A stretch of DNA of 64,000 nucleotides from Paenibacillus swuensis. Lineage in GTDB: Bacteria > Bacillota > Bacilli > Paenibacillales > DY6. The notes below the pieces were generated by a model. The model saw nothing but the letters and a program-made list of their open reading frames with translations, was not told where the DNA came from and ran no database searches. The stretch's first letter is position 1; every line of letters starts with the position of its first letter. The translations under genes were made by a program, and so were the position numbers. Shown here in pieces: positions 23,645-25,595 of the stretch. Location of the stretch: positions 3,500,501 to 3,564,500 of the forward strand of contig NZ_CP011388.1 of NCBI RefSeq assembly GCF_001644605.1, given 5' to 3'.

Positions 23645-24535
23645 ATGAAGATTCGCAAAGCTATTATCCCGGCAGCCGGTTTGGGAACCCGGTTTCTGCC
23701 CGCTACAAAGGCTCAACCGAAAGAGATGCTGCCGATCGTGGACAAGCCCGCGATCCAATATATCGTAGAGGAAGCTATCTCATCGGGAATCGAAGATATT
23801 ATCATCGTAACAGGTAAGAACAAGCGTGCCATCGAGGATCACTTCGATAAATCCTTCGAGTTGGAATACATTCTGGAAGAAAAGCGTAATTATGAAATGC
23901 TGGAAATTGTGCGCGGGATCTCAAGTATGGTGGATATTCATTATATCCGCCAGAAAGAGCAGTTGGGATTGGGTCACGCGGTGCTGTGCGCAATGAGCTT
24001 TATCGGGGATGAACCCTTTGCCGTTCTGCTGGGAGATGATATTATCGACTCGGGTACACCATGTCTGAAGCAAATGATGGACGTCTACGACAGTCACCAT
24101 GCTTCCGTTATTGCGGTACAAGAAGTCGCCGCCGAAGAAGTGCATCAATATGGTGTGGTTGCGCCGGATCGACCTCTTACGGGTAAAGGGCAAACATCCT
24201 ATATCAGCGACTTGGTTGAAAAGCCGGAGCGGGGCTCGGCTCCATCCAATTTTGCCGTTATCGGACGTTATGTCATACAACCACAAATCTTTGAAATTCT
24301 GGAAAGACAACAGCCTGGGCGGGGCGGTGAAATTCAATTAACCGATGCTTTGCGCACATTAAATGAGAATCAACCGATTCTGGCGTACAGCTTTGAAGGC
24401 AAACGCTATGATACGGGTAATAAATTCGGCTATATCGAAGCGACAATCGAATTCGCTTTGCAACGGCCGGAGCTTTCTGAACAACTAAGATCTTATTTGC
24501 TTAAACTGACCAAGGATTGGAAAATAGAAGCTTAA
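23645..24535 (+). CDS. galU: UTP-glucose-1-phosphate uridylyltransferase
   Basis: Makes UDP-glucose from UTP and glucose-1-phosphate for glycolipids and wall polymers; 296 residues, the usual length (GtaB in Bacillus). Start ATG 23645. Motifs: AAGLGTRFLPATKAQPKEMLP (nucleotide-binding loop), EQLGLGHAVLCA, LLGDDII (metal Asp), VEKPERG, RGGEIQLTDAL, KRYDTGNKFGY. Follows the PHP gene by 24 nt, so it may be in the same transcript. Confidence 0.95.
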   Translation: MKIRKAIIPAAGLGTRFLPATKAQPKEMLPIVDKPAIQYIVEEAISSGIEDIIIVTGKNKRAIEDHFDKSFELEYILEEKRNYEMLEIVRGISSMVDIHYIRQKEQLGLGHAVLCAMSFIGDEPFAVLLGDDIIDSGTPCLKQMMDVYDSHHASVIAVQEVAAEEVHQYGVVAPDRPLTGKGQTSYISDLVEKPERGSAPSNFAVIGRYVIQPQIFEILERQQPGRGGEIQLTDALRTLNENQPILAYSFEGKRYDTGNKFGYIEATIEFALQRPELSEQLRSYLLKLTKDWKIEA

Positions 24536-24557
24536 ACCCGTAAACTTTTCAAATTCG

Positions 24558-24586
24558 TTGTACAACGTTTGTAAATGGTTTATACT
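24558..24586 (+). promoter_or_regulatory. promoter of the CarH-like gene overlapping three 11-bp-spaced direct repeats
   Basis: -35 TTGTAC (24558-24563), 17-bp spacer, -10 TATACT (24581-24586). Overlaid are three heptamers starting at 24558, 24569 and 24580: TTGTACA, TTGTAAA and TTATACT, exactly 11 bp apart. The first sits in the 12-bp palindrome CGTTGTACAACG (24556-24567). The arrangement matches the known CarH operator design of three TnTACA-type repeats at 11-bp steps. Confidence 0.75.
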
Positions 24587-24617
24587 AATGCCATGACAAC
24601 ATACGGAGTGGGTTAGG

Positions 24618-25595
24618 ATGAACCAGCGCTTATACACAATTAAAGAGGTTTCATTGCGTTCGGGACTTTCCACTCAACTGATTCGGAAGTGGGAAGAACG
24701 TTATCAAGCGGTGAAACCTGAACGCTTTCCCAATGGGTACAGAGGGTATACGCCCCAGCATATTGATACTTTAGTTTGGCTTAAACAACGAGTAGACCAA
24801 GGGGTTCCGATTAATCTGGCGGTCACGGAATGGCAGTTGGAGAATGCGCAGGAAACGGAATCCTATCCCAAGGATCCCGTTGTGGAATCTGGTCTTGCGA
24901 CAACCGTTTCTACCTCCGGGCTAGCTCAGTCCGGCATGAGAGGTGAGGTTGCCGAATACCGGAAAACATTAATCCGTCATTTGGTAAACCTCGATACCGC
25001 TTCAGCGTCCGGTTACTTCGATCGATTGCTGGCTCTGCACTCCATGGAATTTGTATTAATGAACATCCTTCAACCGGTTCTCGTCGAAATCGGGGAGTTA
25101 TGGGAAATGAATGCCATTTCGGAGTATCAGGAGCATTTTGGCAGTCACTTTCTCAGGGAACGTCTATTGGCAATGAAGAATATGTATCAAGCTGAGCCCG
25201 ATGCTCCGTTAATTGTTACGGCTTGCGGTCCCCGGGAGCGTCATGAGCTGGGTATTTTATTCTTTGGCTTCTTCGCCTTGCAGCAAGGGTACCAAGTGGT
25301 GTATCTCGGAGCTTCCCCTTCTGAGAAAGGCATTCTGGACTGCCTGGAGCAGTTTGAACCGGAGGCGTTCACGTTCAGCTTTTCCACGAAAGTGCTTTAT
25401 GATGAAGCAGCACCTTTCCTGAAAAAGATGGACCGTTCCATTACAGAGCTGCAATTAAAGACGAAGGTGTTCATTGGCGGAAGAGTGTTTACTCAAGACG
25501 AAGCCGTTAACGGTACCGATCATGTGTATATCGTGAGCGGAGACGGGAAAGAATCCGTTCGTAAAGTGAAGAGGATGCTTTCCCTGAAAGAATAA
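24618..25595 (+). CDS. MerR-type regulator with cobalamin-binding domain (CarH/LitR-like B12 photoreceptor)
   Basis: 325 residues. MerR-like winged helix at 5-70 (YTIKEVSLRSGLSTQLIRKWEERY), a linker to about 110, a four-helix bundle (112-195) and a Rossmann B12-binding domain (196-325). The bundle holds W162, E172 and H173, the Wx9EH motif of CarH that caps the adenosyl group. The B12 domain holds E207-x-H209-x-x-G212 (axial His), S254/S256 and GG at 287-288. CarH binds DNA as a dark tetramer with adenosylcobalamin and is released by light. The residue after W162 is Glu, where Thermus CarH has the His that traps the cobalt after photolysis, so light response could differ. Preceded by a matching operator; probably autoregulated. 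Confidence 0.9.
   Translation: MNQRLYTIKEVSLRSGLSTQLIRKWEERYQAVKPERFPNGYRGYTPQHIDTLVWLKQRVDQGVPINLAVTEWQLENAQETESYPKDPVVESGLATTVSTSGLAQSGMRGEVAEYRKTLIRHLVNLDTASASGYFDRLLALHSMEFVLMNILQPVLVEIGELWEMNAISEYQEHFGSHFLRERLLAMKNMYQAEPDAPLIVTACGPRERHELGILFFGFFALQQGYQVVYLGASPSEKGILDCLEQFEPEAFTFSFSTKVLYDEAAPFLKKMDRSITELQLKTKVFIGGRVFTQDEAVNGTDHVYIVSGDGKESVRKVKRMLSLKE

Follow-up and report, generated by a model that had tools for sequence, protein, structure and literature searches.

The gene at positions 24618 to 25595 of the window (the whole 64-kb stretch of Paenibacillus swuensis DNA that was analysed) probably encodes a photoreceptor repressor of the CarH/LitR type, with a predicted regulon made up of carH itself, a carotenoid (crt) operon and a gene for a methyl-accepting chemotaxis protein (MCP). 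The protein is a new member of the known CarH/LitR family, class I, and its membership of the CarH family is practically certain. In an endospore-forming lineage other than Bacillus megaterium, the system would constitute a blue/green-light switch that is open to testing and has a concrete predicted regulon. A light switch of known kind would thereby be found in a new lineage, and its reach may include movement.

The CarH-type protein

24618-25595, forward strand: carH-type gene, 325 aa, encoding a MerR head, a B12 bundle and a Rossmann domain
Residues 6-65 of the protein: MerR head
Four-helix B12 bundle: carries W162-x9-E172-H173
Rossmann B12 domain: carries E207-x-H209-x-x-G212 and GG287-288

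The MerR_1, B12-binding_2 and B12-binding domains each scored over the Pfam cut-off, and the winged-helix DNA-binding head expected of the class is represented by MerR_1 at 40 bits against a cut-off of 21.6. The W-x9-E-H motif of CarH (class I LitR) is complete (W162, E172, H173), and the D/ExHx2G motif occurs as E207-R-H209-E-L-G212, in which H209 aligns with His177, the lower axial His of Thermus thermophilus CarH (TtCarH). All of the motifs named in an earlier sequence-only reading are present, including the GG pair, which is at residues 287-288. In the remainder of the published B12 motif (x41-SxT/V-x22-27-GG), the Ser is correctly spaced, SFS stands in place of SxT/V, and 30 residues rather than 22-27 lead to GG. 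In many orthologues SxT/V is replaced by GSS or similar.

The B12 fold is intact in the AlphaFold model (pLDDT 81), and the closest solved structures are those of Thermus CarH/LitR. Foldseek matched the model to TtCarH 5c8e with an E value of 5e-19, and the superposition gave Z 22.6 and 2.4 A across 199 residues of the B12 domain. With TtCarH as the best fold match and both Wx9EH and ExHxxG in place, the identity assigned to the protein in the earlier reading is supported. The best NCBIfam family is NF052513 (CarH) with 122 bits, which does not reach the curated cut-off of 400, and the protein is therefore a homologue of the NF052513 equivalog and not that equivalog itself. It is the one CarH-family protein in the whole P. 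swuensis genome, in which a cobalamin adenosyltransferase gene also occurs.

Predicted self-operator and its conservation

24558-24586, forward strand: predicted self-operator, three heptamers 11 bp apart, absent from shuffles and conserved in orthologues
24558, 24569 and 24580, forward strand: heptamers TTGTACA, TTGTAAA and TTATACT, respectively
24558-24563, forward strand: -35 element TTGTAC, within repeat 1, followed by a 17-bp spacer
24581-24586, forward strand: -10 element TATACT, within repeat 3, TATAAT in most orthologues
24547-24553, forward strand: possible fourth repeat, degenerate (TTTCAAA), in the same 11-bp register, lacking in most orthologues
23645-24535, forward strand: galU (UTP-glucose-1-phosphate uridylyltransferase), conserved upstream neighbour, outside the switch

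The three heptamers are found exactly where the sequence-only reading had placed them, 11 bp apart, and the promoter that it described (TTGTAC, 17 bp, TATACT) coincides with the repeats, though as a modest sigma-A match. The region contains 8 promoter-like sites, as compared with 3.8 expected by chance, and hence the promoter proves nothing by itself. The three-repeat array upstream of carH is more than chance. The combined pattern of three heptamers, allowing up to three mismatches, has one match in the 64-kb window and none in 100 dinucleotide shuffles, and the self-operator is the sole place in the window with an 11-bp-spaced TTGTANA triplet scoring at least 15/18.

The published CarH repeat is nAnnTnnACAn, occurring three times in Thermus and four times in B. 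megaterium, and overlaps the -35 or the -10 element (PMC9304148, PMC8156234). The tandem 11-bp direct-repeat operator over the promoter that is typical of the class is found here, with the TnnACA core exact in repeat 1 only. As a small correction to the earlier reading, the other two heptamers are degenerate repeats.

As judged by a threshold of E < 1e-60, the protein is carried by 19 of the 249 genomes of the order, the window genome included, and the 18 order-wide orthologues are 45-60% identical to it. Wx9EH is kept in 17 of these, all of which have a TTGTAYAA..TTTGTAAATGGTTTATAAT-like sequence at the equivalent place upstream, weaker in L012 and L014. The orthologue L017, from a genome without crtI (G034), has lost the Trp and the EH of Wx9EH and also the upstream array, and appears to be a decaying or CarA-like copy. 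The presence of an in-register array in 17/18 orthologues and its loss together with Wx9EH bear out the self-operator reading, and the CarH-type protein is predicted, with high confidence, to bind its own promoter. The PHP-galU-carH gene order with convergent rqcH is conserved as far as the compared flanks extend. The carH gene of Paenibacillus daejeonensis (L002) lies directly after the PHP gene, with neither galU nor the array in between.

Predicted targets in P. swuensis and its relatives

A genome-wide scan for the triplet, suggested by the sequence-only reading, was performed with the pattern TTGTAYA-N5-TGTANA-N5-TGTANA. Exactly two perfect matches were identified in the 5.01-Mb genome, for which word frequencies taken over 130 kb of its sequence predict about 0.0014. 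One match is at a carotenoid operon and the other at an MCP gene.

Genome 3255547-3255575, plus strand: site A, crt operator candidate, TTGTACAATACTTGTAGAATGTTTGTATA
Downstream of site A: carotenoid operon, in the order crtI1, crtI2, crtB, CruF-like, acyltransferase, CruG/HpnB-like glycosyltransferase, crtI3, type-2 IPP isomerase (fni)
Genome 958752-958712, minus strand: site B, MCP operator candidate, four 11-bp repeats, TTGTATAATGTATGTATAAGGGATGTATAAGGAATGTGTA
Genome 957155-958666, minus strand (L077:1456-2967): methyl-accepting chemotaxis protein gene, 503 aa

Site A is 76 bp upstream of the first gene of the carotenoid operon, over its likely promoter, and site B ends about 46 bp upstream of the ATG of the MCP gene (start codon 958666). 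The earlier remark that no carotenoid or photolyase gene adjoins carH is locally true, but a carotenoid operon with an array better than the carH self-operator lies 270 kb away. At the level of sequence, the two perfect triplets agree with the accompanying guess that there may be further targets. The crt operon is a highly probable target of the CarH-type protein, as predicted from its array, and the MCP gene a reasonably likely one. The membrane-spanning N-terminal part of this MCP matches no Pfam family.

Several other candidates were rejected or set aside. No array scoring at least 14/18 was found at the photolyase genes of 10 genomes, that of P. swuensis among them (1.6 kb searched, including the upstream region), and none was found at a separate crtI-like gene at G000:3726247. 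The site at G000:1065721, with one mismatch, was set aside, since it has a weak third repeat and overlaps the start of a gene that is read from the other strand.

PhoP likewise uses 11-bp direct repeats (Pho boxes), and two sites look Pho-like and were discarded as CarH targets for being likely Pho boxes: G000:4671252, which adjoins pstS, and G041:C8:49581, which adjoins a phosphatase gene. That the other arrays belong to PhoP or a similar 11-bp direct-repeat regulator is nevertheless most improbable, as the Pho-like sites read TTGTAAA, with an A where repeat 1 of carH and the arrays at crt and MCP carry C, G or T (the C/T position). In addition, the carH, crt and MCP promoters are not accompanied by phosphate genes, and L017 lost its array and Wx9EH together. 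A strong sigma-A promoter alone, with the 11-bp periodicity incidental, would account for the coincidence of repeats 1 and 3 with the -35 and -10 elements, and TTGTAT-17-TATAAT, as the consensus reads, makes a good promoter. However, this explanation of the upstream conservation is very unlikely, given that the middle repeat, located in the spacer, is among the most conserved columns upstream of the orthologues, and that TGTA pairs upstream of the gene are spaced by 11 bp in 7 of 11 sequences, with almost no other spacings. Furthermore, the crt triplet is differently placed relative to the -10 element, and promoters far outnumber perfect triplets.

A sister clade of MerR-B12 regulators (L018-L034), about 30% identical to the CarH-type protein and on a separate branch, has its gene 0.2-0.3 kb upstream of crtI in other genomes of the order, with one 11-bp array at the promoter of the regulator gene and another ahead of crtI. 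TGTA pairs are spaced by 11 bp in 16/18 and by 22 bp in 13/18 of the sister-clade sequences, which are closely related, non-independent rows. As predicted from the sites, P. swuensis has the same two-operator plan, but with its two parts 270 kb apart. Five tandem 11-bp repeats precede crtI on the 3' side of the sister-clade gene in L020, more than the three and four of Thermus and B. megaterium.

Among the orthologue-bearing genomes, carotenoid divergons with 11-bp arrays occur in G083 (L200) and G023/G059 (L150/L149), and an array is found at a crtI-like gene in G030 (L151). About half of these genomes lack crtI, and the protein and self-operator are kept nonetheless. Of these, G020 has an array at a gene for a SpoIIAA-like protein instead, and no convincing second target was found in G051, G053 and G024. 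In three genera, an array lies upstream of a short MCP-like gene, after which come a gene with a DICT domain and one for an EamA transporter, DICT and EamA being identified by Pfam in G036:

L070:3207-5151 (G030): MCP-DICT-EamA locus with upstream array
L152:3099-4891 (G036): the same
L197:1927-3709 (G083): the same

In G161 (L199), an array is located at a membrane receptor gene of a second kind, a putative MCP as judged from its sequence. G036 and G083 also encode a second CarH-like paralogue, and array sites there are therefore not assignable to one protein. At L071:3039 and L201:1965 (G036, G063), array-like sites separate a TetR gene from the gene that diverges from it, which in G036 encodes an MMPL transporter, and the sites in TetR/MMPL divergons (G036, G200, G063) may be the operator of TetR itself. 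Arrays also precede a gene for a SpoIIAA-like protein in two families (L068:3503 and L072:3326; G030 and G020). This protein has homologues in G029 and G044 and none in the P. swuensis genome.

Proposed light response and comparison with known systems

Repression in the dark and release in the light are a likely mode of action of the CarH-type protein, by analogy with TtCarH. In the dark, AdoCbl-bound oligomers, presumably tetramers, would occupy the 11-bp repeat arrays that cover the -35 and -10 elements of the targets. In the light, the Co-C bond would be cleaved, the oligomer would loosen, and transcription would begin at carH itself, at the crt operon 270 kb away and at the MCP gene on the minus strand. 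The domain architecture, the motifs, the operator conservation and the rarity and position of the sites are read directly from the sequences, and the fold is a predicted one. That the protein binds AdoCbl, forms such oligomers, represses in the dark and lets go in the light is inferred from homology to TtCarH.

Glu163 of the CarH-type protein occupies the position of His132, the light-state ligand of TtCarH. Glu is found there in every orthologue that keeps Wx9EH, and all of the orthologues are without His, which makes light-induced disassembly uncertain. An AdoCbl sensor that represses from the same operators, stays assembled in the light and mainly reports the AdoCbl level or oxygen would fit this replacement and the observation that TtCarH H132A remains mostly tetrameric after illumination (PMC10442372). 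Glu163 and the off-consensus B12 motif (SFS, 30 residues to GG) leave some room for such a sensor, which is nonetheless rather unlikely. An earlier study, as cited in PMC10442372, observed disassembly of H132A, and the His132 position is taken by Arg, Gln or Tyr in other cobalamin photoreceptors (PMC11796333). Moreover, there is full conservation of Wx9EH, the motif that caps the adenosyl group, and a photoprotective carotenoid operon is among the predicted targets.

As every orthologue found has another residue at this position, nature has provided in this lineage a way to test if the light response of CarH requires His132 and bis-His ligation. What is added by this system is the predicted regulon, the lineage-wide lack of the His132 ligand and a possible link to chemotaxis, whereby chemoreceptors may be under CarH control. 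More tentatively, light may couple photoprotective carotenoids and chemotaxis through an unlinked regulon, with MCP genes (those of P. swuensis and G161 and the MCP-DICT-EamA operons of G030, G036 and G083) derepressed by light via an endospore-former CarH lineage lacking His132. If so, non-pigment targets of the MCP type would be the main role of CarH in genomes without crtI. No paper on CarH control of MCP genes was found in the titles and abstracts of the open-licence literature searched.

T. thermophilus CarH/LitR (5c8d, 5c8e, 5c8f) shares with the P. swuensis protein the domain order, the fold (Z about 22), Wx9EH and the lower His ligand, and its promoter is likewise covered by three direct repeats spaced 11 bp apart. 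Identity is only about 25%, however, and the P. swuensis protein has Glu163 instead of His132 and SFS-x30-GG. Its repeats are mostly TTGTAYA/TTGTAAA/TTATAAT, and its predicted sites comprise a self-operator and an unlinked crt operon.

B. megaterium, also a Gram-positive endospore former, has a CarH/LitR that acts as an AdoCbl photoreceptor over carotenoids, with 11-bp direct repeats over the -35 or -10 element (PMC9304148). The two systems are compared here by published description. The operators of B. megaterium have four repeats, whereas the P. swuensis self-operator has three, and a chemoreceptor target of the B. megaterium protein is not reported in the open-licence literature searched.

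The sister clade shares Wx9EH, a W followed by Glu, and 11-bp arrays on its own and crt promoters, but it is linked to crt and has the recognition helix VTLRAWENRY, as compared with QLIRKWEERY in the P. swuensis clade. CtMerR of Chloracidobacterium thermophilum (8jbs, 8jbt; Z about 20) is likewise a MerR-B12 photoreceptor that lacks the His132 ligand (PMC11796333), although it is 16-17% identical to the P. swuensis protein and has Arg, not Glu, at that position.
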